DNA of 44,566 nucleotides from the NCBI GenBank assembly GCA_022710935.1, contig JAKLFY010000050.1:1-44566 (forward strand), read 5' to 3'. The translations under genes and the position numbers were made by a program. The notes below the pieces were generated by a model that was not told where the DNA came from, made no database searches, and saw only the letters and a list, made by a program, of their open reading frames with translations. Numbering within the stretch: the stretch's first letter is position 1; every line of letters begins with the position of its first letter. Source of the stretch: Verrucomicrobiota bacterium (GTDB lineage: Bacteria; Verrucomicrobiota; Verrucomicrobiia; Limisphaerales; J093). Below, piece after piece: positions 21,876-44,250 of this stretch.

Positions 21876-22393
21876 GGTGAATTGCCGCACACGCGCCGTC
21901 GAGTCTTGATCGCCCTGGTTCAACTGCTTTCCACTCTTTCTGTTACCTGCCCATCCACCTTGCGTAGCAGAAAATGCGGGGCGATGTCGCCCCAGCCCAA
22001 ACAGCCATGAATAGGGATCGCAGGAATGACGCGAAAGGCGTCGTGCTGTGTGGCTTTGTCCAAACGCGCGGCTGCGGAGAGGAGCGACCGCGGCGCGCCC
22101 GAAGAGCCTATGGGCCGCAGCCTCGGCGTTGCGCGCCCAACCGCGCTCGCGCTCCCACGGACAACTTGTCAACGCACCGCCTTGCACCAGGGCCAATTCA
22201 TGGAGTGGAGCGGCGACGGCCCGTCGCCGAGAAACACCGTCTTCACTCGCGCTGGCGGGGGACGAGCCGTCCCCCCTCCAGCCCTTTCGTCTTCATGATT
22301 TGGCGCTGGGCTTGGACAGGCAGGGGCGAAATAGGTTCGACAATTCGGGGAGACTTGCGGTACAAAACGCCCATCTCCTCCCCACATGCGGCT
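21876..22393. other. divergent intergenic region with palindromic repeats
   Basis: These 518 bp separate the TonB receptor (minus) and the ECF sigma gene (plus). I see no gene. They contain several perfect hairpins: GGGGCGA and TCGCCCC at 21978-21993, CGGCGACG and CGTCGCCG near 22211-22229, and GGGGGACG and CGTCCCCC near 22256-22275. The last two sit in a roughly 85-bp block (22200-22286) that looks like a REP-type dispersed element. Promoters for both flanking genes must lie here, but no convincing -35/-10 pair stands out. Confidence 0.6.
22200..22286. repeat. REP-like block of two tandem hairpins
   Basis: The block is bounded by TGGAGTGGAG on the left and CCCTCCAG on the right, and holds two 8-bp perfect stems whose cores share a GACGG/CCGTC palindrome. 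It is a non-coding palindromic repeat of the sort scattered in many Verrucomicrobiota genomes. Family membership is inferred, because only this copy is in the window. Confidence 0.45.
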
Positions 22394-23146
22394 ATGTCGA
22401 ATCGACGACCACCCGAGGCCCAGATTCGTGCCTCCCCCGATTGGCCCCAGCGAACCCATTGGAGCCTTGTCATGGCCGCTGGCGACCCCGCCGCGCCGGG
22501 CGCCGCGGCCGCACTGGACGCGTTGTGTCGGGCGTACTGGTACCCCGTCTACGCGTATGTCCGCCGCTGCGGCCAGAGCGCAATCGAGGCGGAGGACCTG
22601 ACGCAATCGTTCTTCCTGCACCTGCTGACCTCGAAGGCCCTGGCCACCGCGACGCCGCACCGAGGGCGTTTCCGCGTCTTTCTGCGGGCGTGTGTGGATC
22701 ATTTCATCGTGACCTGCTGGCGACGCGAGCACGCCGTCAAGCGGGGCGGTCGGGTCAGCATTCTCTCCTGGGAACGGGACGGGTCGGAGCCCCGCTACCA
22801 GGCGGACGCTCTGTCGCCCCTGACGCCCGAGGCGCTGTTCGACCGGACTTGGGCGGACACGTTGTTGAACCGGGTCTTGAACCAACTCGAAGCAGAACTG
22901 GTTGCCGAGGGCAAGACCAGCTTGTTCGATCGCCTGAAAGACAGGTTGATCGGCGACCCCGACGCGGCGTCCTATGCCGAGCTGGCGGACACGCTGGGCA
23001 CGACCGAGGCAGCGCTGAAGATGACCGTGCGTCGGCTGCGCCTGCGCTATCGCGAGCTCTTGTTGAGGGAGATCGCGCACACGGTGTCGTCGCGCGAGGA
23101 AGCGGACCAGGAACTGCAACACCTGCTGGCGGTGGTAAGCGCATGA
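22394..23146 (+). CDS. ECF-type RNA polymerase sigma factor, kinase-associated group
   Basis: This 250-residue sigma-70-family protein has region 2 at about residues 35-100 (LCRAYWYPVYAYVRRCG, then EAEDLTQSFFLHLL, the core-binding region 2.2). Region 4 is at about 180-230 (SYAELADTLGTTEAALKMTVRRLRLRYRELL). The segment 'THWSLVMAAGD' is typical of the planctomycete/verrucomicrobial ECF groups encoded beside Ser/Thr kinases. The start at 22394 keeps about 20 residues in front of the conserved part. Its TGA overlaps the kinase ATG (ATGA, 23143-23146), so the two are translationally coupled. No anti-sigma factor is present, fitting the known idea that such sigma factors are controlled by phosphorylation. 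Confidence 0.9.
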   Translation: MSNRRPPEAQIRASPDWPQRTHWSLVMAAGDPAAPGAAAALDALCRAYWYPVYAYVRRCGQSAIEAEDLTQSFFLHLLTSKALATATPHRGRFRVFLRACVDHFIVTCWRREHAVKRGGRVSILSWERDGSEPRYQADALSPLTPEALFDRTWADTLLNRVLNQLEAELVAEGKTSLFDRLKDRLIGDPDAASYAELADTLGTTEAALKMTVRRLRLRYRELLLREIAHTVSSREEADQELQHLLAVVSA

Positions 23147-26100
23147 ATGGTCCTTTCTGCAAACAATGCGGTCGACCGCTGCGGGCCAACGCGCCGCGCG
23201 GCTTGTGCCCGGCCTGCCTGCTCGGAGCGGGGCTGACCGCGTTGCGGCAACCCTCCGAGCCAGCCGCCCCGCCCGCCCCCGGGCCTGCTCCCCTGCGTGT
23301 TGGAGACTACGAACTACTCGATGAAGTCGGCCGCGGCGGCATGGGCGTGGTCTATAAGGCCCGCCAGCTCAGCCTCGACCGCGTCGTCGCGCTCAAGCTG
23401 GTCCTGGGCGGACGGCTGGCCGGACGCGACCAGGCGCAGCGGTTCCGCGCCGAGGCTCAAGCCGCCGCGAATCTCCAGCACCCGAACATCGTGGCAATCC
23501 ACGAGGTCGGCGAGCACGCGGGGCAGCTCTTCTACGCGATGGACTACATCGAGGGGAAGAACCTCGCGTCGATCATCTCAGATTCGAAATTTGAGATTTC
23601 AAATCACACGCGCAGCGTGTCGTGGATGAAGACGGTGGCGGAAGCGGTGCATTACGCCCACGAGCAGGGCATCCTCCATCGCGATCTCAAGCCCGCCAAC
23701 ATCATCATTGACCAGCATGACCAGCCGCGCGTCACCGACTTCGGCCTGGCCAAACGACTGGTGATCCCGCCCCGAGACGGCCCGGGCGGCGTGCCTTCCG
23801 TGACGCCCCCAACCTCGAGTGCGGTGCCGGCCAAGGCCGGGGCTCCCAACCGAGCAACCACCGACTCGAACCCACCGGACCATGCCAACGCCCCACTCTC
23901 CACTCTCAACTCTCCACTCTCAACTTCCCTGACTCTCAGCGGCCAAGTCCTCGGCTCGCCCAGCTATCTCTCGCCCGAAATGGCCGAGGGCAAGCGCACC
24001 GCGGTCGGCGTCGGCAGCGATGTCTATTCGCTGGGCGCGGTCCTGTACCACCTCCTGACGGGTCGTCCGCCGTTCCAGGGCGAGACGCTCACGGCGCTGC
24101 TGCGGCAGGTGATCGAGACCGATCCGGTCGCCCCGCGCCGGCTCAATCCGAGCATTCCGCGTGATCTCGAGACGCTCTGCCTCAAGTGTCTCGAGAAGGA
24201 GCCGCGCCGCCGCTACGCGACTGCGCTCGATGTGGCGGACGAGCTGGGGCGGTTTCTGGCGGACGAACCGATCCGGGCGCGTCCGGCTGGCCGAATCGAA
24301 CGGCTTTGGCGTTGGTGCCGGCGCAACCCGAGACTGGCCGGGGCAATGAGCGCTGTGGTCTTGAGCCTGATGCTCGGTCTGGTCACAACCACCTGGCAGA
24401 TGCGCCGCGCCCAAAGGAGCGAGATGACGGCGCTCCAACGGGCTTACGTTTCCGACATGGATCTCGCCACCCGGGCTTTGGCCGAGGGCGACATTGGGCG
24501 CGTGCGCGACCTCCTCGACCGCTATGCCGCTCCGACCAAACCAACGGCTCCCACTGGCCACCGACCATCAACCATCAACCATCGACCATCAACCGACTTG
24601 CGCGGCTGGGAATGGCAGTACCTCTGGATGAAATCCAGCGGCCAGGGAGACCTTCGACTGTGCACACGCCGGAAACAAGTCAGCAGCCTGGCGTTCACTG
24701 CTGACAGCCGCCGCCTCCTGGTCCACGAACGACAAGGTGTGACCCTGGTCTATGATCTCTCGACCCGACAACCGGTCCCCGGCCTGATCCTGACCAATCG
24801 CAGTTGGCACCTCGGCTTCTGTCCAGTCTCGAATCGCGTGGCCTGCCAGGTCTCTCCCGAGCCGTGGCAGGATGGCGAAGTCCGCCTCTGGGATCTCGAA
24901 AGCAACACCACCGCCTTTCGGCACACCTACCAAGACGACGAGTTCGCCTCGTTCGCGTTCTCTCCCGACGGACAGCGCCTGGCCGGATTCGCGTACGTCC
25001 GCGGCGTCTGTGTGTGGGACCTCACCAGCGAAGGAGCGATGACCACCATCCCGGCCGAGCCGGCTGCGGGGAACATCTGGTCTGGAGCGGTTGCGTTCGA
25101 CCCCACGGGTCAGACGCTCGCCGTCGGCCATCGAACGAACGGCCTCGTGCGTCTGCACCGCGTGTCAGACGGACGGGTCGACGCCGAGTTTCGACTGCCC
25201 GCCGACCCGGTTATGGCACTCGCGTTTTCGCCTGACGGACGCTGGCTGGCTGCGTCGGCACTGGCAACCAACGCCGTGGTCAGGGTCTGGCCGCTGCCAT
25301 CCGGCGAGCCGATGGAACTTGCCGGACAGAGCATCGCTCCCCTGGCCCTGGCGTTCGACCCGCAAAGCCAGGTGTTCGCCACCGGCGATGGCGAACTCAT
25401 CCGCCTCTGGGACTTGCAGCGACGCCGCCCAATCACCACGCTGGTCGGTCACCGGCTGGGGGTCACTGCCCTGGCCTTCTCGCCTGATGGCCGGCAGCTC
25501 GCCAGCGGGTCCAACGCCACCGGTGCCGAAGACGCCGAAGTGCGGCTGTGGGACGTCGCCACGGTGGCGCGTCCGGCGCAGCCTGACTATCAGGTCCTCA
25601 GCAACATCGGGCTGGTGGCCTTCGAACGCGATGCGCGCTCCTTCCTCGCGCTGGCGGATGGAGCAGTAACCCGTTTCGACCTGGTCACTCTCGAACCCAT
25701 CGAACCGCTGCGCCTGTATGGGACCAACAACTCGAGCCTGAGCGTGTCCAAAGACGGACGCTGGCTGGCGAACGCAGAGACCAACGGCATGGTTCATGTG
25801 TGGGACCAAGAGACACACCAGGAATGCGCCTCGTTCCGCCCCTACCCCGACACCACTCCTGAAAGAGGGACCATGCGGATCCTGGCGCGAGGGCGCCTGC
25901 TGCTGTCCCGACCCAATAACGTCGTTCAACACCCCATGAACCTCTGGGACACGCGCACCGGCCAGCAGCCCGAACCTTGGCATTCGCTCAACACCGAGGC
26001 CCGACTGGGCTGCATCACGGCCGAGGACTCGATGGACGGACGCTTGCTGGCAACCGGCCACTTCGACGGGCGCGTCTTACTCTGGGATGCCGAATCGGGA

Positions 26101-26511
26101 GACCAGTTGGCCGCGTTCGACGCCCACCGCGAGTGTGTCATGGAAGTCGCCTTCTCACCGGATGGCCGCTGGCTCGCCTCAGCAGGCTGGGACGGTGCTT
26201 TGCGGCTCTGGGATGTCCATCGGCGGGAGGCCGCGGGACAGTTCGGCAGGACCGAGGCGCCGGCCTACGGCATTACGTTCTCGCCCGACGGACGCCGCGC
26301 CGCCAGCGGCGGCCTCACGGGACCTGTTTCCGTCGGCATCTGGGACGTCGCCACCCGAGAGCACCTGACCGGTCTGGTGGGCCCGGGGTGCTTCTTCTTC
26401 GCTCCGCGCTTCTCGCCCGACGGACGGACCCTCGCGGTGTGGAAGTACACGGAAGATGTGACGTGCTTCTGGCGCGTGAATGCACTTGAAGATATCGACA
26501 GACAGAAGTGA
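23143..26511 (+). CDS. transmembrane Ser/Thr protein kinase with WD40 propeller
   Basis: The protein has 1122 residues. An N-terminal zinc ribbon (CKQCGRPL...GLCPACL, residues 6-26) precedes the kinase domain (about 54-377). That domain has VGRGGMGVVYKA, VALKLV, HRDLKPANI (about 178) and DFGLAK (about 199), so the catalytic residues are intact. One membrane segment follows (about 398-418). The remainder (about 490-1120) carries about twelve WD40 repeats, with repeated FSPDGR.LA and LWD motifs. Low-complexity stretches interrupt it at about 146-157 (hinge side), 246-264 (activation segment, LSTLNSPLSTSLTLSG) and 474-487 (RPSTINHRPST). These are encoded by DNA repeats that also occur between genes. 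It is coupled to the sigma factor upstream and probably phosphorylates it. Confidence 0.93.
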   Translation: MNGPFCKQCGRPLRANAPRGLCPACLLGAGLTALRQPSEPAAPPAPGPAPLRVGDYELLDEVGRGGMGVVYKARQLSLDRVVALKLVLGGRLAGRDQAQRFRAEAQAAANLQHPNIVAIHEVGEHAGQLFYAMDYIEGKNLASIISDSKFEISNHTRSVSWMKTVAEAVHYAHEQGILHRDLKPANIIIDQHDQPRVTDFGLAKRLVIPPRDGPGGVPSVTPPTSSAVPAKAGAPNRATTDSNPPDHANAPLSTLNSPLSTSLTLSGQVLGSPSYLSPEMAEGKRTAVGVGSDVYSLGAVLYHLLTGRPPFQGETLTALLRQVIETDPVAPRRLNPSIPRDLETLCLKCLEKEPRRRYATALDVADELGRFLADEPIRARPAGRIERLWRWCRRNPRLAGAMSAVVLSLMLGLVTTTWQMRRAQRSEMTALQRAYVSDMDLATRALAEGDIGRVRDLLDRYAAPTKPTAPTGHRPSTINHRPSTDLRGWEWQYLWMKSSGQGDLRLCTRRKQVSSLAFTADSRRLLVHERQGVTLVYDLSTRQPVPGLILTNRSWHLGFCPVSNRVACQVSPEPWQDGEVRLWDLESNTTAFRHTYQDDEFASFAFSPDGQRLAGFAYVRGVCVWDLTSEGAMTTIPAEPAAGNIWSGAVAFDPTGQTLAVGHRTNGLVRLHRVSDGRVDAEFRLPADPVMALAFSPDGRWLAASALATNAVVRVWPLPSGEPMELAGQSIAPLALAFDPQSQVFATGDGELIRLWDLQRRRPITTLVGHRLGVTALAFSPDGRQLASGSNATGAEDAEVRLWDVATVARPAQPDYQVLSNIGLVAFERDARSFLALADGAVTRFDLVTLEPIEPLRLYGTNNSSLSVSKDGRWLANAETNGMVHVWDQETHQECASFRPYPDTTPERGTMRILARGRLLLSRPNNVVQHPMNLWDTRTGQQPEPWHSLNTEARLGCITAEDSMDGRLLATGHFDGRVLLWDAESGDQLAAFDAHRECVMEVAFSPDGRWLASAGWDGALRLWDVHRREAAGQFGRTEAPAYGITFSPDGRRAASGGLTGPVSVGIWDVATREHLTGLVGPGCFFFAPRFSPDGRTLAVWKYTEDVTCFWRVNALEDIDRQK
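23582..23606 (+). repeat. palindromic AT-rich microrepeat inside the kinase gene
   Basis: The stretch GATTCGAAATTTGAGATTTC is markedly AT-rich for this gene and forms a GAAAT/ATTTC hairpin. It encodes DSKFEIS at about residue 147, where no insertion is expected in a compact kinase fold. Confidence 0.5.
23889..23927 (-). repeat. GTTGANN heptamer repeat in the kinase coding sequence
   Basis: On the minus strand this reads as heptamers GTTGAGA GTGGAGA GTTGAGA GTGGAGA GTGG. On the coding strand it yields PLSTLNSPLSTS between DFGLAK and GSPSYLSPE, that is in the activation segment. Confidence 0.7.
24563..24597 (-). repeat. ACCATCA heptamer repeat in the kinase coding sequence
   Basis: The plus strand reads ACCATCA ACCATCA ACCATCG ACCATCA ACC. 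Its complement unit, TTGATGG, is a GTTGANN variant. It encodes RPSTINHRPSTD in the linker between membrane segment and WD40 domain. Confidence 0.7.
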
Positions 26512-34856: not shown

Positions 34857-35669
34857 ATGAACCTGACGGTCAGAGGCGTGTCCGAGTTGCTCGATGTGTC
34901 CGAGAAAACGGTCTACCGCTGGCTCGGCGCGGGCAGGCTCCCCGCCTACCGGCTCAGCGGCCAGTACCGCTTCAGCCGGGCCGAAATCCTCGAGTGGGCG
35001 ACGGCCAACAGGCTCAATGTGCCGGCCCGAACCCTGCACGAGACGGACGACACGAATGAGCCGCTGCCGACGCTGGCCGAGGCTCTCGAAGCCGGCGGCA
35101 TCTTCTACCGGATCGGCGGCACGAACCGCGAATCCGCCCTCCGCAACGCGGTCGAGACGCTGCGCCTCCCGGACGAAGTGGACCGGGGGTTCCTTCTCGA
35201 GGCGCTGCTCGCGCGCGAACACCTGGCCTCGACCGGCATCGGCGAGGGCATCGCCATCGCCCACGCGCGCAATCCCGTCGTGCTGCACGTGATCAAGCCG
35301 GTCCTCGCGCTCTGTTTTCTCGAACGGGCCGTCGATTTCGGCGCGCTCGATGGCCGTCCAGTGCGGGCGCTGTTCACCCTGGTCAGCCCCAGCGCCCGCG
35401 CGCACCTCGATCTCCTCTCCCGGCTGTCGTTCGCGTTGCGCGATGCGGACTTCAAGCACATGGTGCTCGCACAGGCCGACCGCGACACGCTCCTCGGCGC
35501 CATTCGGCGCCTCAGCGCGGGCGCGTCACCCCGGAACCGGACACCGGGCGCGCACCGCCGCTCGACCCGTCGCACCGATCCCCAGGGCCCGACCGGCACG
35601 TCCCGCTCGCCGGCACGCACACGACATGCTGGTGCGCACCGGGCCGGACCAAGCCGCGCGCGGTCCTGA
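34857..35669 (+). CDS. HTH (excisionase-type) and PTS EIIA fusion regulator
   Basis: The 270-residue protein has two domains. Residues 1-52 are a MerR/excisionase-type helix-turn-helix (VRGVSELLDVSEKTVYRWLG, with YRFSRAEILEW). Residues about 70-222 are a PTS EIIA domain of the fructose/PtsN class. The phospho-His lies in STGIGEGIAIAHAR, the counterpart of the family's GiGiAiPHgr. The last 47 residues are Arg/Pro-rich and look non-conserved, possibly an extended tail after a lost stop. It precedes the hydrogenase-related operon by 39 bp on the same strand and is likely its regulator or energy-state sensor. A PtsN-like, non-sugar role is more likely than transport because no EIIB or EIIC is nearby. 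Confidence 0.85.
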   Translation: MNLTVRGVSELLDVSEKTVYRWLGAGRLPAYRLSGQYRFSRAEILEWATANRLNVPARTLHETDDTNEPLPTLAEALEAGGIFYRIGGTNRESALRNAVETLRLPDEVDRGFLLEALLAREHLASTGIGEGIAIAHARNPVVLHVIKPVLALCFLERAVDFGALDGRPVRALFTLVSPSARAHLDLLSRLSFALRDADFKHMVLAQADRDTLLGAIRRLSAGASPRNRTPGAHRRSTRRTDPQGPTGTSRSPARTRHAGAHRAGPSRARS

Positions 35670-35708: not shown

Positions 35709-37757
35709 ATGACCGACTTTACGCTGTCGCTGTTGAGTGTTGCCCTGTGGGCCTATCTGGCCGGTGCGGCCGGCGCGTTGGCCTTCCAGCGCTTCGAGAG
35801 ACTGGCCAATGGCTTCGGATTCGGCATGGCCGCGGTGGGCGGTCTGTGCGGCCTGGTCTCATGCGGCGCGGCGCTGGCTTCAGGCATGCCTGCCGCGTCC
35901 CGGTCGATCGAGCTGTTTCCCGCGCTCATTCCGTTTGTCCGGTTCGTGATTCGGCCGGACGCGCTGGGCTGTTTCTTTGGCCTGATCGTCTCGCTCCTGG
36001 CCGTGGCTCTTTCGGTCTACTCGCTGGGCTACGCCCGCGGCTACTTCGGACGCAGGAACGTCGGCGTGCTGGCCGCCCTGTTCAACCTGTTGCTGCTTTC
36101 AATCACGCTGGTCTTTCTGGCCGACCATGTCGTCTTCTTCCTCATCGCCTGGGAGCTCATGGCGCTGAGCGCCTCGCTCCTTGTCTGCTTCGAGCACGAA
36201 CAGGACGAAAGCCGAGGCGGCGCCGTGCTCTTCTTCGTGATGTCGCACATCGGCACAGCCGCCCTGATTCTGGGATTCCTGCTCCTGTTCCAGGCGTCCG
36301 GCAGCTTCGCCTTTGCCGACTTTCATGCGCTGGGCGCGAAGCTCTCGGCGGGCCGGCGTGACGGGGTGTTCCTGCTGTTCCTCTTTGGATTCGGGATCAA
36401 GGCCGGGCTGGTGCCCCTGCACATCTGGCTGCCGGCCGCCCATCCGGTCGCGCCCAGCAACGTGTCCGCTCTCATGTCCGGCGTGCTCATCAAGACCGGC
36501 GTCTATGGGCTGACCCGTGTCTGTTTCGATTTTCTGGGCGCGCCGCCGCAGTGGTGGGGTGTGACGGTGCTGGGCCTGGGGACGGTCTCCGCGGTTCTGG
36601 GCGTGCTCTTTGCGCTGATGGAACACGATCTCAAGCGCTTGCTCGCCTACCATAGCATCGAGAACATCGGGATCATTCTCATGGGGCTCGGCGCGGCGCT
36701 CATGCTGCTGCACTCGGGCCATCCGATGCTGGCATCGCTCGCCTTGATCGCCGGCCTCTACCACACCCTCAACCACGCCTGCTTCAAGGCGCTGCTGTTC
36801 CTGGGCGCCGGCGCGGTCCTCCATGCCACCCATACTCGCAACATGGAGGAGATGGGGGGGCTGGCGAAGCGCATGCGATGGACGACCGCATTCTTCCTCC
36901 TGGGCGCCGCCGCCATTTCCGCGCTGCCGCCTCTCAATGGATTCGTCAGCGAATGGCTCACCTACCAGTCCTTGCTGCATGGTTTCGGGTCCACGCCCAG
37001 CCTCATCCGGCTGATGTTCCCGCTGAGCGGGGCCATGCTGGCGCTGACCAGCGCTCTGGCGGCAGCCTGCTTCGTCAAGGCTTTCGGCATCACGTTCCTG
37101 GCCCAGCCGCGCGGCGCGCATGCACGGGAGGCGCGGGAGGCCCCGTTGACGATGCTGCTTGGCCAGGGCCTCCTGGCGGCAACGTGCGTCGTCCTCGGCC
37201 TGTATCCGGGTCTTCTCCTGAGGTTGTTCGACCCGCTGACGCACCAGTTGATCGGCGAACGGTTGAGCCAGCGCCTGAGCCTCGCCGGGGGCCTCGTCCT
37301 CTCGAGTGGGTCCGCCCAGGGCGGCACGGTCTCGACCCTGGGCATTGTACTCATGCTCTTGGCGTTGCTGGCCGTGCCGGTTGTCTTGTGGGCCCTGTTC
37401 GCGCGCGGGACCCGGACGCGGATCGCGCCGACGTGGGACTGCGGCTTGCGGGGATTGACGCCGCACATGCAATACACCGCCACGGGATTCTCGAAGCCGC
37501 TCCGGATGATTTTCAAGGCGCTGTTCCGCCCGCGGCGCGAGGTGCAGCGCGAGTACGATTTCTCGCCCTACTTCGCCACGACCCTTCGTTTCGAGAGTCA
37601 TGTCGAGGAGGTGTTCCAGACCCGCGTGTACCGTCCGCTCAAATGGCTTGTGCTGCGGATCTCGAGGCGGTCGCGCGCGCTGCAGGCGGGCAGCATCCAG
37701 GCCTACCTCATCTACATCTTCCTCACGCTGCTGGCGCTGCTCCTCTTCGCGCTATGA
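35709..37757 (+). CDS. hyfB: hydrogenase-4 component B-like antiporter subunit of Ehr complex
   Basis: This 682-residue membrane protein of the NuoL/MrpA antiporter superfamily (HyfB/HycC group) has about 16 membrane segments. Ion-pumping residues are kept: Glu in IAWELMALSA (TM5), Lys in FGFGIKAGLVPLHIWLP (TM7), Lys in SGVLIKTGVYGL (TM8), and EHDLKRLLAYHSIENIG (TM10-12 region). A late motif GTRTRIAPTWDCGL is typical of HyfB. The start has AGACGAGG about 6 bases upstream. Its TGA overlaps the next ATG (37754-37757). It is the first membrane subunit of the six-gene locus. Confidence 0.92.
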   Translation: MTDFTLSLLSVALWAYLAGAAGALAFQRFERLANGFGFGMAAVGGLCGLVSCGAALASGMPAASRSIELFPALIPFVRFVIRPDALGCFFGLIVSLLAVALSVYSLGYARGYFGRRNVGVLAALFNLLLLSITLVFLADHVVFFLIAWELMALSASLLVCFEHEQDESRGGAVLFFVMSHIGTAALILGFLLLFQASGSFAFADFHALGAKLSAGRRDGVFLLFLFGFGIKAGLVPLHIWLPAAHPVAPSNVSALMSGVLIKTGVYGLTRVCFDFLGAPPQWWGVTVLGLGTVSAVLGVLFALMEHDLKRLLAYHSIENIGIILMGLGAALMLLHSGHPMLASLALIAGLYHTLNHACFKALLFLGAGAVLHATHTRNMEEMGGLAKRMRWTTAFFLLGAAAISALPPLNGFVSEWLTYQSLLHGFGSTPSLIRLMFPLSGAMLALTSALAAACFVKAFGITFLAQPRGAHAREAREAPLTMLLGQGLLAATCVVLGLYPGLLLRLFDPLTHQLIGERLSQRLSLAGGLVLSSGSAQGGTVSTLGIVLMLLALLAVPVVLWALFARGTRTRIAPTWDCGLRGLTPHMQYTATGFSKPLRMIFKALFRPRREVQREYDFSPYFATTLRFESHVEEVFQTRVYRPLKWLVLRISRRSRALQAGSIQAYLIYIFLTLLALLLFAL

Positions 37758-38701
37758 ACCCGGACCCGCTCGCCCTACTGCTCCAGACTCTCCTGCTGCT
37801 GCTGCTGGCGCCGCTGGTCAGCGGGATCATCAAGAACTGGAAAGCCAAGCTCCAGAACCGCCGCGGCCCGCGCCCCTGGCAGGTCTATCTCGATATCGCC
37901 AAGTTCCTGCGCAAGGACATGGTGATTTCCGAGAATGCCTCGTGGATCTTCTCGGTCGCCCCGCACGTTCTGTTCACAAGCGCCCTGCTCGCGGGCCTGA
38001 TGGTCCCCATGCTGGCCGCGCCGGCGCCCCTGAGCCTCTTCGGCGGCGCCCTGGCGCTGATCGGCCTGCTCGCCCTGGGCCGGTTCTTTCTCGCCCTGGG
38101 CGGGCTCGACCCGGCCAGCGCGTTTGGCGGGATGGGCAGCAGCCGCGAGATGACGCTCTCGGCGATCGCGGAGCCGGCGCTGATGCTGGCGATCTTCACC
38201 GTGGCCATCACGGCGGGGTCGACCGATTTGAGCCAGATCTGCCGCAGCACCCAGAGCGCGACCTGGAGGCTGCTCAACCCCGCCCATGTCCTCGCGTTCG
38301 CGGCGATGTTTGTGGTCCTGCTGGCGGAGACCGGGCGCGTGCCGGTCGACAATCCGGCCACGCATCTCGAGTTGACGATGGTGCACGAGGCGATGCTGCT
38401 CGAATACTCGGGCCGCTATCTGGCCTTGATGGAATGGGGCGCCTCGATCAAGCAACTGGTGCTGATGACGCTGCTGGCCAATGTGTTCGTGCCGGTCGGC
38501 CTCGCGGTCTCGGGAGCGGGTCCGGGAGCGCTGGCCCTAAGCCTGCTCGCTTACCTGGCCAAGCTGCTCGCCCTCGCGGCCGCCGTGGTCCTGGTCGAAA
38601 CCAGCAACGCGAAACTGCGCCTCTTCCGCGTGCCGGATCTGCTCAGCGCGGCGTTCGTTCTGGCCACGCTGGCGCTGCTTTCGACTTTCCTCTTCCAGTG
38701 A
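37754..38701 (+). CDS. hyfC: hydrogenase-4 component C-like (NuoH family) subunit
   Basis: This 315-residue membrane protein of the NuoH/HyfC/HycD family anchors the peripheral redox arm to the membrane. It has eight hydrophobic segments. The conserved loops carrying charged residues are visible: NRRGPRPWQVYLDIAKFLRK after the first segment, and LLAETGRVPVDNPATHLELT followed by HEAMLLEYSGRYLALMEWG, the counterpart of NuoH's AE.NR.PFD.PE.E loop. It starts in an ATGA overlap with hyfB, and the hyfE-like gene follows after 2 bases. Confidence 0.93.
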   Translation: MNPDPLALLLQTLLLLLLAPLVSGIIKNWKAKLQNRRGPRPWQVYLDIAKFLRKDMVISENASWIFSVAPHVLFTSALLAGLMVPMLAAPAPLSLFGGALALIGLLALGRFFLALGGLDPASAFGGMGSSREMTLSAIAEPALMLAIFTVAITAGSTDLSQICRSTQSATWRLLNPAHVLAFAAMFVVLLAETGRVPVDNPATHLELTMVHEAMLLEYSGRYLALMEWGASIKQLVLMTLLANVFVPVGLAVSGAGPGALALSLLAYLAKLLALAAAVVLVETSNAKLRLFRVPDLLSAAFVLATLALLSTFLFQ

Positions 38702-38703
38702 AC

Positions 38704-39375
38704 ATGAGCCCATCCGCAACAGCGGCCATCGGGTCGCAGATTCTGACGCTCATGGCGGCGTTGATGCTCGTGCTGCAGTTGTTCATCATTGCGCAGCGCA
38801 GGCTGCTCACCAACATCCGCCTCTTCGCGATTCAGTCGCTGCTTCTGGCCGGCATTGCGGCCGTCGTCGCCTTCCACCACTCCGCCAGCCACGTCTATCT
38901 GGTTGCGGGCCTGACTCTGGCGGGCAAGGTCGTCCTGCTCCCGTGGCTCCTGACCCGCCTGGTCTATCGCATCCAGATCCACCAGGAAATTGAGCCCCTG
39001 CTCAATGCCCCGAGCTCGATGCTGATCGGCGGGGGGCTGACTCTGCTCGGCTACGTGGTCGCACGCCCGTTCACGTCGATGGAACGTCTGGGGAACAACA
39101 CCCTGGCCATCGCGCTGGCGCTGGTGCTCACCGGCTTCTTCCTGATGATCAACCGGCGCAAGGCCCTCACCCAGGTGCTGGCGCTGCTCACCGTCGAGAA
39201 CGGGGTCATGCTCGCCGCCGTCGCCCTGACCACCTACGGCATGCCGCTGGTGGTCGAGTTGGGGATCTTCTTCGACGTGCTTGTGGCGGTGATGGTGCTC
39301 GCAATCCTCGTCTACCGCATTCGCGAGAACTTCGCGTCGATGGACACCAGCAAGCTCAACCAATTGAAAGGCTGA
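38704..39375 (+). CDS. hyfE: hydrogenase-4 component E-like membrane subunit
   Basis: The 223-residue protein has six or seven hydrophobic segments. The C-terminal half resembles NuoK/MrpC (LTVENGVMLAAVALTTYGMP, with the buried Glu in TVENG). That matches HyfE, which combines a NuoK-like part with extra N-terminal helices. It lies between hyfC and hyfF with 2-base and 1-base gaps, so it is clearly part of the operon. HyfD is absent, as in smaller formate-hydrogenlyase-like clusters. Confidence 0.88.
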   Translation: MSPSATAAIGSQILTLMAALMLVLQLFIIAQRRLLTNIRLFAIQSLLLAGIAAVVAFHHSASHVYLVAGLTLAGKVVLLPWLLTRLVYRIQIHQEIEPLLNAPSSMLIGGGLTLLGYVVARPFTSMERLGNNTLAIALALVLTGFFLMINRRKALTQVLALLTVENGVMLAAVALTTYGMPLVVELGIFFDVLVAVMVLAILVYRIRENFASMDTSKLNQLKG

Positions 39376-39376
39376 C

Positions 39377-40855
39377 ATGTCGTTGTTGACGCCCATCCTC
39401 ATCGCGCCCCTCCTGGCAGGACTCCTCTGCCTGGTGGTGCCGTCGCGCCGGGCCATGGCGGCGCTGGGCGTGCTGGCGTTTGCCACCACCCTGGCACTGG
39501 GCGTCGCCCTCCTCCGCGAGGTCCTGGCTCGCGGCGTCGTGACCGAATGGAATGGATTTCTGTCCGCCGACGCCCTCAGCGCCTGGATGGTGCTCCTTAT
39601 CTCGGTCGTTTCCTTCGCGTCCGCCCTCTACGCCGGACGCTACTTCCAGCGCGACATCGACGCGGGCGTGGCCAGCCCGGCGCGGGTCCGCGAGTTCTAC
39701 GTGCTCACGCCGCTCTTCGGAGCGGGGATGTTCCTGGTGGTGCTGGCCAACAACCTGGGCGTGATGTGGGCAGCGGTCGAAGGCACCGCCCTGTCGTCGG
39801 TGTTGCTGGTGGCGCTCTACAACCGCCGCAACTCGCTCGAAGCGGCCTGGAAATACGTCATGCTCGGCAGCGTCGGCCTGGCCCTGGCCCTCCTGGGCAC
39901 GGTGTTCGTCTATGCCGCCGCCTGCAAGAACACCCCCGACGCCCTGCCCAGCCTCAATTGGTCGTATCTGATGTCCGTGGCCGGGGGGCTCGATCCGCAT
40001 CTGCTCAAACTCGCCTTCGTGTTCGCGTTTGTCGGTTACGGCACCAAGGCCGGCCTGGCCCCGATGCACACCTGGCTCCCCGACGCGCACAGCGAGGCGC
40101 CCTCGCCTACCAGCGCAATGCTCTCCGGAGTGTCGCTCAAGATCGCCTTCTACGCCTTGTTGCGGTTCCACATTCTGACAACCGCATGCCTCGACTCTCC
40201 CTTCAGCCGCCGCCTCCTCCTTGTCTTCGGCCTTCTCTCGATGCTCCTGGCCCCGCCGTTCATCCTGGTCCAGCGCAACCTCAAGCGGCTCCTCGCCTAT
40301 TCGAGCCTCGAACACATCGGCCTCATCTGCACAGCCATCGGCCTGAACACGCCTCTGACCATCCTGGGCGCGCTCATGCACATGGGCTACCACGCGCTTA
40401 CCAAGCCGGTGCTCTTCTTCGCCGCCGGCAACATCCATCAGGCCTTCCACTCGCTCGAATTCCGGCGCATTGGGTCGGGCGTTGTTAAGGTCCTCCCGCT
40501 CACAGCGCTCTGGATGGGGCTGGCCGCTCTGGCCGCAATCGGGCTGCCGCCCTTCGGCCTGTTCTTGAGCGAACTGACAGTCCTCAGCGGCGGCCTCGCC
40601 GCGCATGAAACAACTGTCAGTGCGCTGATCCTGATCGCCCTCGTCGCTTCCTTCTGCGGTATTCTCCAACAACTCACCCGCATCCTGCTCGGCGCGCGCC
40701 GCCCGGACGCCCGCCCCATTGAGACCCACCGGCTCGATGGAGCGCCGGCGATGATTCTGCTGTTGGGGGCGCTGCTGCTTTTCAGCGTGTGGCTGCCGAC
40801 GCCTCTGCTTGATCTGCTGCGCCAGGCCGCCGCCATCATCGGAGGTCAACCATGA
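39377..40855 (+). CDS. hyfF: hydrogenase-4 component F-like antiporter subunit
   Basis: This 492-residue second NuoL/M/N-type subunit has about 14 membrane segments. Key residues are present: WAAVEGTALSSVLLVALYNR (Glu in TM5), VGYGTKAGLAPMHTWLPDAHSEAP (Lys in TM7, HTWLPDAH typical of HyfF), and QRNLKRLLAYSSLEHIGL. The stop overlaps the next ATG (40852-40855). With HyfB it gives the complex two antiporter-type ion channels. Confidence 0.93.
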   Translation: MSLLTPILIAPLLAGLLCLVVPSRRAMAALGVLAFATTLALGVALLREVLARGVVTEWNGFLSADALSAWMVLLISVVSFASALYAGRYFQRDIDAGVASPARVREFYVLTPLFGAGMFLVVLANNLGVMWAAVEGTALSSVLLVALYNRRNSLEAAWKYVMLGSVGLALALLGTVFVYAAACKNTPDALPSLNWSYLMSVAGGLDPHLLKLAFVFAFVGYGTKAGLAPMHTWLPDAHSEAPSPTSAMLSGVSLKIAFYALLRFHILTTACLDSPFSRRLLLVFGLLSMLLAPPFILVQRNLKRLLAYSSLEHIGLICTAIGLNTPLTILGALMHMGYHALTKPVLFFAAGNIHQAFHSLEFRRIGSGVVKVLPLTALWMGLAALAAIGLPPFGLFLSELTVLSGGLAAHETTVSALILIALVASFCGILQQLTRILLGARRPDARPIETHRLDGAPAMILLLGALLLFSVWLPTPLLDLLRQAAAIIGGQP

Positions 40856-42456
40856 ACCTGTTCGGCGTCTCCAGCGAACTCCGTCCGGTGGTCGAGGACC
40901 TCAACCGACGCTTCGAAGGCCGGTTCGACGCCCTCGTCACCCCGCGGCTCAACGAGGTCTATTTCCACGCCGCGATGGATCTGGTGCCGGGCTTCTGCGC
41001 CCACCTCTGCCGCAAGTGGAAGGCGCGCTTGATGACCGTGTTTGCCGACGATGCCCGGGCCGGGCATGGCGTGTTTCACCTCTATTACGCGCTGGTGCTC
41101 GACGACTTGCACGGGCTCCTCGTCCTCCGAGTCCCCGTTTCGCCCGAAACCCCCGAGTTCGCCGCCCTGACCAACGCCATCCCAGCCGTCAATTGGCAGG
41201 AACGCGAGATCCAGGATTGGTTCGGATTGAAGCTCATCGGCCATCCCAATCCGCGGCGCTGCGCCCTGCACGACGACTGGCCGGCAGTCCATCCGTTGCG
41301 CAAGGATTTCAACCTCGACACGGTGCTGCCCCCCTTCCAGGGCGAACGCCACAAGTTCCGCCCCGTCGAGGGCGAGGGCGTGTTCCAGGTGCCGGTCGGG
41401 CCGGTCCATGCGGGCATCATCGAGCCGGGGCATTTCCTTTTCAGCGTGGCGGGGGAGCCGGTGCTCTACTTGCAGTTGCGTCTGTTCTACGTCCACAAGG
41501 GCACTGAGAAGCTCTTCGAGCGCCTGCCCATCCCTCATGGCGTGCGCCTGGCCGAGAGCATCTCCGGCGATTCGAGCTTCGCCCATGCGACGGCCTTCTG
41601 TCACGCCATCGAGCGCGCTGCCGGCGCCCAGGCGCCTCAGCGCGCGCGTATGTTGCGGTCGGTCTGCCTCGAACTCGAACGCCTCTACAACCACGTCGCC
41701 GACGTCGGGGCGATCTGCACCGATGTCGCGTTCGTCACGGCCAACATGCACGCCATGCGGCTCAAGGAGCAGATCCTCCGCGTCAACGAACACCTCACCG
41801 GGAACCGACTCCTGCGCGGCATGGCCTGTCTGGGCGGAGTCCGGTTCGATTGGGACGCCGACCAGATCAAGCGTCTCAATGGGCTGGTGAACGACCTGCG
41901 GCCCGAGTTCGATTCACTCGTCCAGCTCGTCGAGGGCTCGTCTTCCACCCTCGACAGGCTCGATACCACGGGCATCCTCAAACCCGAGGTGGCCCGCGAC
42001 CTGGGGGTGGTCGGCATCGCCGGCCGGGCGTCCGGATTCGCCCACGACCTGCGCCGCGATCTTCCCCACGCCGCCTACGATCAGGTGCGGATCCGTGTCC
42101 CCGTCCACCAGGTGGGAGACGTCCGACACCGGCTGCAGGTCCGCGTGGACGAGGTGCGCGAGTCCCTTGCGCTCATCCAGACGTTTATCGCAAAGCTGCC
42201 CGGCGGACCTCTGCGCATCGAGATCGGCGAAGTCCCCCCCGACCGGGTCGCCTTCGGCTACGTCGAAGGGTGGCGCGGCGAGATCTTCCACTGGATTCGC
42301 ACCGCGCCCAACAACCGACTCGCCCGATGCCGCGTCAAGGATCCGTCCCTCCAGAACTGGCCGGCCCTGAGCGAAGCTGTCCTGGACAACATTGTCCCCG
42401 ACTTCCCGGTCATCAACAAGAGCTTCAACCTGTCGTATTCGGGCACCGACCGCTGA
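40852..42456 (+). CDS. HyfG/HycE-like large subunit lacking Ni-Fe ligands (NuoC-NuoD fusion)
   Basis: The protein has 534 residues. The N-terminal about 165 are NuoC-like (30 kDa family, WQEREIQDWFGLKLIGHPNP with HPLRKDF). The rest is NuoD/hydrogenase large-subunit-like. In Ni-Fe hydrogenases the metal is held by RxCGxC near the start and DPCxxC near the end. Here the aligned sequences are SISGDSSFAH (Ser238, Ser241) and DPSLQNW (Ser499, Asn502), so all four cysteines are missing. H2 chemistry is therefore ruled out by known mechanism. The family fits Ehr complexes. The rest of the fold, including RLYNHVADVGAICTDV, is well kept, so this is not decay. Confidence 0.9.
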   Translation: MNLFGVSSELRPVVEDLNRRFEGRFDALVTPRLNEVYFHAAMDLVPGFCAHLCRKWKARLMTVFADDARAGHGVFHLYYALVLDDLHGLLVLRVPVSPETPEFAALTNAIPAVNWQEREIQDWFGLKLIGHPNPRRCALHDDWPAVHPLRKDFNLDTVLPPFQGERHKFRPVEGEGVFQVPVGPVHAGIIEPGHFLFSVAGEPVLYLQLRLFYVHKGTEKLFERLPIPHGVRLAESISGDSSFAHATAFCHAIERAAGAQAPQRARMLRSVCLELERLYNHVADVGAICTDVAFVTANMHAMRLKEQILRVNEHLTGNRLLRGMACLGGVRFDWDADQIKRLNGLVNDLRPEFDSLVQLVEGSSSTLDRLDTTGILKPEVARDLGVVGIAGRASGFAHDLRRDLPHAAYDQVRIRVPVHQVGDVRHRLQVRVDEVRESLALIQTFIAKLPGGPLRIEIGEVPPDRVAFGYVEGWRGEIFHWIRTAPNNRLARCRVKDPSLQNWPALSEAVLDNIVPDFPVINKSFNLSYSGTDR

Positions 42457-42459
42457 CCT

Positions 42460-43323
42460 ATGCCGGGCATTCTCACCAAGTCGTTGTCGACGGGCATCGT
42501 CACCACCCGCTATCCGGACACCCCCGCCCACGCATCCCCCCACACCCGCGGTCGGCCCGAGATCGACTGGCCGAAGTGGAATGACGCCCGCTCCGCGGCC
42601 GCCGTCTGCCCAACCGCCGCCATCGCGTGCAACGACGCCGCCCAGACGCGCACAGTCACGTTCGACCTCGCCAAGTGCGTCTTTTGCGGCCTCTGTGCCG
42701 ACACCGACAAGGCAATCCGCATGAGCAACGTCTGCGAGTGCGCCGCGCGTCACCGAAACCGCCTCGTCGCGACCGCGCAGTACGGCCTCAACGAGGACGG
42801 CACGCACCGGCAGTTGATCGCCGGGCCCGATGCGGCGACAGCGATGCATGATGCCGTCTCCTCTGCCACACGAAACGACTCGATCGAGTCGCTGGGCCGC
42901 CAGATCCAATCCCGGGCCGCCCGCCTCTTCGGCCGCTCGCTCCACATCCGCGAGGTCGATGCCGGTTCGTGCAACGGATGCGAAATCGAGATCGTCGGCC
43001 TCACCAGCCCGGTCTACGACATCGAACGCTTCGGCATTCACTTCGTCGCGTCGCCGCGTCATGCCGACATGCTGCTCGTGACCGGCCCCGTGACGCGGAA
43101 CATGGAACTTGCGCTGAAGAAGACCTACGACGCCACCCCCGAACCCCGGCTCGTGGTCGCTGTGGGCGCCTGCGGCTGCAGCGGCGGCATCTTTGGCGTG
43201 AACTACGCCACGCGGGGCGCTGTCGACACCGTGATTCCCGTCGATGTCTACATCCCCGGCTGCCCGCCCAATCCGCAGGCCCTGTTGCACGGAATCCTCA
43301 TGGCGATCGAACGCACCGCCTAG
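42460..43323 (+). CDS. ferredoxin and NuoB/HyfI-like small subunit fusion
   Basis: The 287-residue fusion has a ferredoxin-like N-terminal part (about 40-95) and a small subunit C-terminal part (about 150-287). The small subunit has a [4Fe-4S] site at Cys171, Cys174 (CNGCEIE), Cys238 (GACGCSGG) and Cys268 (PGCPPNP). In the ferredoxin part only one cluster can form, from Cys73-Cys76-Cys79 (CVFCGLC) and Cys50 (CPTAAI). The first CxxCxxC and the second CP of a normal 2[4Fe-4S] HycF/HyfH protein are missing (CADTDKAI). It combines the roles of HyfH and HyfI in one chain, giving a short two-cluster wire to the large subunit. It follows the large subunit after 3 bases and ends the operon. Confidence 0.88.
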   Translation: MPGILTKSLSTGIVTTRYPDTPAHASPHTRGRPEIDWPKWNDARSAAAVCPTAAIACNDAAQTRTVTFDLAKCVFCGLCADTDKAIRMSNVCECAARHRNRLVATAQYGLNEDGTHRQLIAGPDAATAMHDAVSSATRNDSIESLGRQIQSRAARLFGRSLHIREVDAGSCNGCEIEIVGLTSPVYDIERFGIHFVASPRHADMLLVTGPVTRNMELALKKTYDATPEPRLVVAVGACGCSGGIFGVNYATRGAVDTVIPVDVYIPGCPPNPQALLHGILMAIERTA

Positions 43324-43329
43324 TATTAC

Positions 43330-44250
43330 TATGTTAAGTGGAGTCATTGATTTTCGGCGGAAATGTTGTTCCGCAGCAAGGACAACACCCGATCAACCGC
43401 ACCAACCACGGCTGTATCGCGTGCAAAACCCTTTCCCACGTAACACCAGAAGATCTTTTTAGAGCGCAGGTAGATCACCATGACAAACAGATACGCCACC
43501 GCCGCCAGGACCAAGTGGTGGTGAAAGCCCTGCCAGCATCGGCCCTCGTAGTGATCCAATCCCAAATCGGTCTTGTCGCGTTGAAAGAACTGCTCGACGG
43601 GAAACCGACCACGGCTCAGCCGCAAACAACGCGGCGCCGTCGGTTTGGTTTTGAACCAGGCCGAATACAGATGGTAGGGCTCGGCCTCGCCTTGAGGCCA
43701 GTCCGCCACCAGCCAGGTCTGTGGCCACTCCCCGGTTTGCGGATCCAAATCGCTGAGCACGTACACGGGCACCCAGGCGATGCGGGTTTTGCGCTTGGTT
43801 CCATCGGCCGCGCGCCATGCCACCGGGTGCCATTGGGCTTTGCGAATCGATTGGCTCAACGCGGCTAACGAACTGGCTGCCGCTTGACCCTCGGCGACTC
43901 CCCAGTACTTCTTGGCCCGCCGCGTCTTCACCGGTTGGGTCCACGCCAGCAAATCGCCCCCCACGTTAAGAAAGTACTCCAGTCCCATCTGGCGCAACTC
44001 CCACCGCAACTCGCTGGCCGCACCATAGACTTCGTCGCCCAACACAGGGGCGGGAGTCACGTTGTCGGCCAGTACCGATTTGATCAGTTCCAGCGCGATC
44101 GCCGGCTTGGTTTGAAATGACACTTCCGCCGGCACTCCCGCCCCCTCTCGCCGCAGCGGGTCATTGGCCCACTTCTCCGGCAAATAGAGCCGTCCAGCCA
44201 CCGGCGCCGCAATCTCCCCATCGCTGACGACGATTTCCATAAAGGCAATA
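43330..44250 (-). mobile_element. truncated IS701-type insertion sequence
   Basis: The boundary on the operon side lies just after the last Ehr gene stop (43323). On the other side the transposase is cut at about 44240 and joined to unrelated sequence starting GGGTCAGATCC. No matching terminal inverted repeats could be found, because one end is lost. Confidence 0.6.
43344..44240 (-). pseudogene. 5'-truncated IS701-family (DDE) transposase
   Basis: The remaining frame encodes 298 residues. It starts inside the fold, at GRLYLPEKWANDPLRREGAG. It retains GDEVYG (second catalytic Asp) and QRDKTDLGLDHYEGRCWQGF with HHHLVL (catalytic Glu region). IS701 transposases are normally above 400 residues, and the missing N-terminal part would hold the first catalytic Asp. 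The protein should therefore be inactive. The Met at 44240 is simply the first in frame. Confidence 0.85.

Follow-up and report, generated by a model that had tools for sequence, protein, structure and literature searches.

An operon of six contiguous genes in a Verrucomicrobiota bacterium (assembly GCA_022710935.1), found within a window of 44,566 nucleotides (here the whole analysed stretch, contig JAKLFY010000050.1), almost certainly encodes an Ehr complex, ehrABCDLS, whose large subunit has none of the four cysteines that serve as Ni-Fe ligands in group 4 [NiFe] hydrogenases. Because the six genes, assigned by Pfam and NCBIfam in the order A-B-C-D-L-S, match the named set ehrABCDLS, the locus can be placed in Ehr, a family of unknown function. 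This gene set has been reported in verrucomicrobial methanotrophs including Methylacidiphilum (PMC6688271), high abundance of EhrA-S with formate was observed in Geobacter sulfurreducens (PMC7894505), and the absence of Ni-Fe ligands from Ehr large subunits of unknown function was stated in several studies (PMC10284858, PMC10432482, PMC6349859). The complexes of Methylacidiphilum, G. sulfurreducens, and comammox Nitrospira share with the present one the same six subunits, the lack of Ni-Fe cysteines, and the antiporter-like arm (PMC6688271, PMC7894505, PMC10284858); no difference in kind from published Ehr was shown, with the Geobacter and Methylacidiphilum proteins compared by description rather than by sequence. 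An earlier note, which was made from the window's letters alone, had assigned the locus to energy-converting hydrogenase-related (Ehr) complexes, in agreement with the present result, and had also called it a candidate for an undescribed bioenergetic system, which goes too far in that Ehr complexes have already been described and named, although it is true that their function is undescribed. What is new here is a residue signature extending across the Ehr family, a comparison of electron entry, and a link to SulP transporters.

The operon is intact, as had been claimed, neighbouring genes overlapping by 4 bases at the closest and standing a few bases apart at the widest, and all genes lie on the forward strand. 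It starts with EhrA (35709-37757), an antiporter-like subunit of the HyfB/NuoL type, followed by the HyfC/NuoH-type membrane anchor EhrB (37754-38701), the HyfE-type (NuoK-related) subunit EhrC (38704-39375), and a second antiporter-like subunit, EhrD, of the HyfF/NuoN type (39377-40855). Both antiporter-like proteins have kept the Glu of TM5, Lys of TM7, Lys of TM8, and Glu of TM12 (E149, K231, K262, and E415 in EhrA; E135, K224, K255, and E399 in EhrD), and EhrB has an Ehr-specific stretch, DNPATHLELTMVHEAMLLEYSG, at the position of NuoH DQPEAEQEL. EhrB, EhrA, and EhrD are predicted to transport ions. Two EhrA-like antiporter subunit genes were observed in several acidobacterial loci (L048, L049, L050, L052, and L053). 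The large subunit EhrL (40852-42456) and the small subunit EhrS (42460-43323) complete the operon. A putative regulator with HTH_17 and PTS EIIA-2 domains and a GIAIAHAR histidine site (34857-35669, forward strand) is located 39 bp upstream of EhrA and is probably co-transcribed with the operon. On the opposite strand, a DDE transposase ORF (43344-44240) ends 20 bp past the EhrS stop; synteny with the same-genus locus L007 stops at 43314, which points to a likely recent insertion immediately downstream of the operon.

The open reading frame at 40852-42456 was correct in coordinates and frame, and its product of 534 amino acids was recognized as a large subunit of the HycE/NuoCD type by Pfam, PDB sequence match, alignment, tree, and fold. 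It has the fused NuoC-NuoD layout also seen in HycE, with a NuoC-like domain (PF00329, E 4.1e-21) and a NuoD-like domain (PF00346, E 2.9e-43), and among PDB sequences the formate hydrogenlyase subunit HycE of E. coli matched best (7z0s_E, E 3.2e-88). A fold search with the AlphaFold model (pLDDT 84, pTM 0.88) ranked the same chain first (481 residues, Z 40.9), with complex I chains behind it; within the pocket region of this model, residues 183-190 and 511-534 have pLDDT below 50, too low for the shape of the pocket to be read from it. Alignment of HycE RVCGICGFAH with EhrL SISGDSSFAH (residues 236-245, 41557-41586, forward strand) places S238 and S241 at the first two cysteines of RxCGxC, as the earlier note had read by eye, together with an Ehr-specific aspartate, D240. 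The same note had located the second motif at DPSLQNW (residues 497-503, 42340-42360, forward strand; Ser499 and Asn502), which can be rejected as the DPCxxC counterpart since it pairs with RAATYANW of HycE. The true site is at the very C-terminus, within NKSFNLSYSGTDR (residues 522-534, 42415-42453, forward strand), where NLSYSGTDR (526-534) aligns with HycE DPCYSCTDR and the cysteines are replaced by S528 and G531. The conclusion that all four ligand positions are replaced thus stands, with the second pair moved.

A stop codon directly follows this motif, and EhrL ends exactly after the final R of TDR, where active homologues carry a tail of 28-35 amino acids. The active-type homologues from the window's family have RICGICG, DPCFSCTDR, and such a tail, and the cleavable C-terminal extension of group 4 [NiFe] hydrogenases is absent in EhrL. 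In active [NiFe] hydrogenases, it is well established that these tails are cut off by maturation proteases (PMC7654741, PMC2670836). Judged from its residues, the EhrL complex would be unable to make hydrogen, and the metal pocket appears to have been rebuilt.

A scan of species genomes for relatives detected 80 loci; wherever a phylum was recorded, it was Verrucomicrobiota or Acidobacteriota. Every full-length relative that was aligned has SGDS at motif 1 and ends in SYSG plus TDR or NDR, and single-letter variants occur around these positions. Between EhrL and the copy in L007 (93% protein identity), dN was 0.037 and dS 0.235 (dN/dS of about 0.16), and the gene is thus judged to be under purifying selection. 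Since the aligned full-length close relatives all have the same S/S/S/G and the L007 comparison gave these rates, a sequencing error or a pseudogene was ruled out. A survey of the phylum gave matches at E 1e-60 or better, mostly at 33-42% identity, in 111 of 388 genomes, a set that was sorted only in part into Ehr and active types.

When 35 sequences were placed in a maximum-likelihood tree, a split supported at 100/99 separated EHR1 (the class of the window), EHR2 (a second class, from Verrucomicrobiota), and the relatives from proteobacteria from a group made up of HycE, HyfG, MbhL, complex I, and the local active hydrogenases; the tree contains no published Ehr reference sequence as an anchor. 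EhrL therefore lies outside the active group 4 enzymes and apart from complex I, and the clustering with active hydrogenases that would have contradicted the earlier reading of the locus as something other than a hydrogenase did not appear. MbhL and complex I form long branches whose mutual position is unsure, as is that of L105 (G010:C11:99272-100597), a third and very divergent large subunit with FAATTAFAH and LSVAENDR, whose long branch leaves the Ehr side at its base. In eight loci (L008, L009, L010, L014, L015, L034, L037, and L085), the EHR1 cluster has an EHR2 large subunit (AGDT / NLSYCG) nearby, and genes for membrane subunits separate or flank the two.

Elsewhere in the same genome, a second large subunit with all four cysteines and a 28-residue tail is encoded at C182, adjoined by a HycI-type maturation protease, a molybdopterin oxidoreductase, a two-cluster ferredoxin, and NuoH-like and NuoB-like proteins. 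The cysteines, tail, and protease are present at C182 and none of them was found at the window operon, and a true group 4 hydrogenase thus seems to exist in this organism separately from Ehr. Two complex I large subunits are also encoded in this genome. Near the window operon, where family labels covered part of the flank, no HycI-type protease, HycB/HyfA-like, or NuoE/F gene was found.

When 84 Ehr rows were aligned, some of them repeated (about 71 distinct, three classes), eight residues proved invariant, namely D240, N280, D284, D497, N522, K523, N526, and G531. None of the eight occurs in the seven active hydrogenases compared, and the sole match among four complex I sequences is one N at position 280. 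Three residues are common to EhrL and hydrogenases, namely E191 (HycE E193, in the beta1-beta2 loop), R475 (HycE R478), and H281 (HycE H284). HycE D529, the canopy aspartate, has been described as strictly conserved in the superfamily (PMC9474812); its position is N526 in EhrL and Asn in every Ehr sequence compared. We infer that the former Ni-Fe site is now a rebuilt polar pocket under strong selection.

These features distinguish the locus from three related systems. Counterparts of E. coli HyfB, C, E, F, G, H, and I are present and the three hydrogenase residues are kept, but Ni-Fe cysteines, cleavable tail, adjacent protease, HyfA, HyfD, and FdhF are missing and the canopy Asp is Asn. With complex I (NuoB, CD, H, K, L, M, and N), the locus shares the fold, the fused CD layout, the pumping residues, and D291 (Nqo4 D139), whereas it has no NADH module or NuoA, and its proximal cluster is of the hydrogenase CxxC type. 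The quinone residues of Thermus Nqo4, H38 and Y87 (PMC7684303), correspond to I190 and G239 in EhrL, and the His/Tyr pair is thus missing. MBS is likewise a hydrogenase relative with an altered active site, without the Nqo4 H38/Y87 residues, and with its ion-pumping arm kept; it differs in retaining two of the four cysteines (C85 and C385) and in a shortened proximal-cluster motif (PMC7684303), while EhrL retains no such cysteine and EhrS has a motif of the hydrogenase type.

EhrS consists of an N-terminal ferredoxin-like domain fused to a NuoB/HyfI-type domain. Its ferredoxin-like part has one 4Fe-4S site (C50, C73, C76, and C79), kept in 57-58 of 58 relatives, and in the window's class it has lost the first of the CxxCxxC motifs seen in HyfH-type ferredoxins. 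By analogy with NuoI, the cluster that was lost would presumably correspond to the outer N6a and the remaining one to the inner N6b. In the NuoB-like part, the proximal-cluster ligands C171, C174, C238, and C268 are kept in 55-57 of the 58 relatives, the remainder being gaps, and the cluster has CNGC with the hydrogenase spacing, where complex I has CC, and a motif as long as that of HycG. It is thus predicted that EhrS of this class kept the two clusters nearest the site and lost one ferredoxin cluster. This one-cluster fusion sets the class apart from neighbouring Ehr classes, since both ferredoxin clusters are present in EHR2 small subunits and the proteobacterial EhrS proteins (171-179 amino acids) have no ferredoxin domain. 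With one, two, or no ferredoxin clusters depending on class and the proximal cluster in common, the point of electron entry differs among Ehr classes. In one EHR2 EhrS (L034:10437-, forward strand; Opitutaceae genome), the proximal cysteines are replaced by N, E, D, and W and the remainder is well conserved, and this locus is possibly a redox-free Ehr.

Such variation bears on whether Ehr is a redox complex at all. A role in pH homeostasis was proposed for Ehr in Methylacidiphilum (PMC6688271), and the complex might be an ion-transport or pH-homeostasis system whose peripheral arm lost its redox function and acts only as a scaffold or sensor, a reading with which L034 and the varying electron-entry domains of EhrS would agree. 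It is considered rather improbable, because nearly every one of the 58 relatives in the window's class keeps the cluster ligands, which is hard to explain without electron transfer. The reading that we modestly favour is an electron-driven ion pump with an acceptor other than protons in the rebuilt polar pocket. A soluble ferredoxin-like donor would most likely supply low-potential electrons, which would enter at the single [4Fe-4S] site of EhrS and pass to its hydrogenase-type proximal cluster, whose ligands are conserved; the electrons would then reduce a small molecule in the polar pocket at the old Ni-Fe site, as the Ehr-wide signature suggests, and this reduction would power ion export via EhrB, EhrA, and EhrD, the last two of which keep the Glu and Lys residues. 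As a single candidate, a membrane quinone is preferred as the acceptor, at rather less than even chances, and some other small molecule has about the same odds; the evidence does not point to a quinone in particular, because I190 and G239 stand at the Nqo4 H38 and Y87 positions and the operon has no NuoA-type subunit.

The sole recurring metabolic neighbour of Ehr operons was a SulP-STAS anion transporter gene, detected on the same strand in 11 of 78 loci with a usable flank, in both Verrucomicrobiota and Acidobacteriota. It lies 37-141 bp upstream in nine loci (L020, L024, L031, L039, L044, L045, L047, L051, and L058) and 98-168 bp downstream in three (L045, L061, and L083), the L045 and L061 downstream copies being short. 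Identity among the main SulP proteins is 49-61% between phyla and, for the most part, 72-94% inside a phylum, a divergence about equal to that of EhrL. Their closest NCBIfam models are DauA, SulP, and BicA. It is conceivable, though unlikely, that the redox pump uses a polar or anionic non-quinone acceptor and that a DauA/BicA-like SulP in the operon imports or balances the anion (bicarbonate or a C4-dicarboxylate). The invariant K523, N522, and N526 would suit an anion, and the hyf-like cluster of Acidithiobacillus caldus adjoins a beta-carbonic anhydrase (PMC3826726). However, scores were mostly below the model cut-offs, including those of DauA and BicA, no beta-class carbonic anhydrase was found in any Ehr locus with E. 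coli Can as the query, and most relatives have no adjacent SulP. As the window has none beside the operon either, and its own genome has only a 26% identical SulP elsewhere, the link is a lead and not a rule.

A partner dehydrogenase was likewise sought around the operon. A formate-linked chain of formate dehydrogenase and Ehr was proposed for Riflemargulisbacteria (PMC6349859) and suggested for Geobacter, whose Ehr subunits are high in formate-grown cells (PMC7894505), and the present genome does encode a molybdopterin oxidoreductase. That gene, however, adjoins the active hydrogenase at C182 and not Ehr, a search of the window detected neither NuoE/F nor a HyfA-like gene, and none of the labelled ORFs flanking its operon is a dehydrogenase, which makes such a chain quite improbable here. 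In annotated proteobacterial plasmid-borne Ehr loci, neither SulP nor a dehydrogenase partner immediately adjoins the operon. The regulators beside Ehr vary, being of the PTS EIIA type in several Verrucomicrobiota (including the HTH-EIIA protein of the window) and of the ArsR type in Acidobacteriota. HPr-family phosphocarrier genes were observed about 3 kb upstream of EhrA on three Burkholderiales plasmids (L119, L125, and L127); together with the PTS EIIA domains adjoining EhrA, they make a link between Ehr and PTS-type regulation possible. A long ORF with a Ser/Thr protein kinase domain and WD40 repeats was also observed in the window (22030-26508, forward strand).

A decidedly tentative proposal is that Ehr is a distinct functional branch of the complex I superfamily, in which the Ni-Fe pocket was rebuilt once around D240/N280/D284/N522/K523/N526 to bind or reduce an acceptor unlike protons, quinone, or polysulfide, and that in some lineages it acts together with an anion imported by SulP. 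Ehr complexes occur in many phyla, and the signature singles out a few residues (K523, N526, D240, and D284) within them. The comparison of EhrS proteins suggests that the electron entry point varies between classes but the pocket does not, and the apparent presence of a true group 4 hydrogenase alongside Ehr in one organism may provide an internal control.
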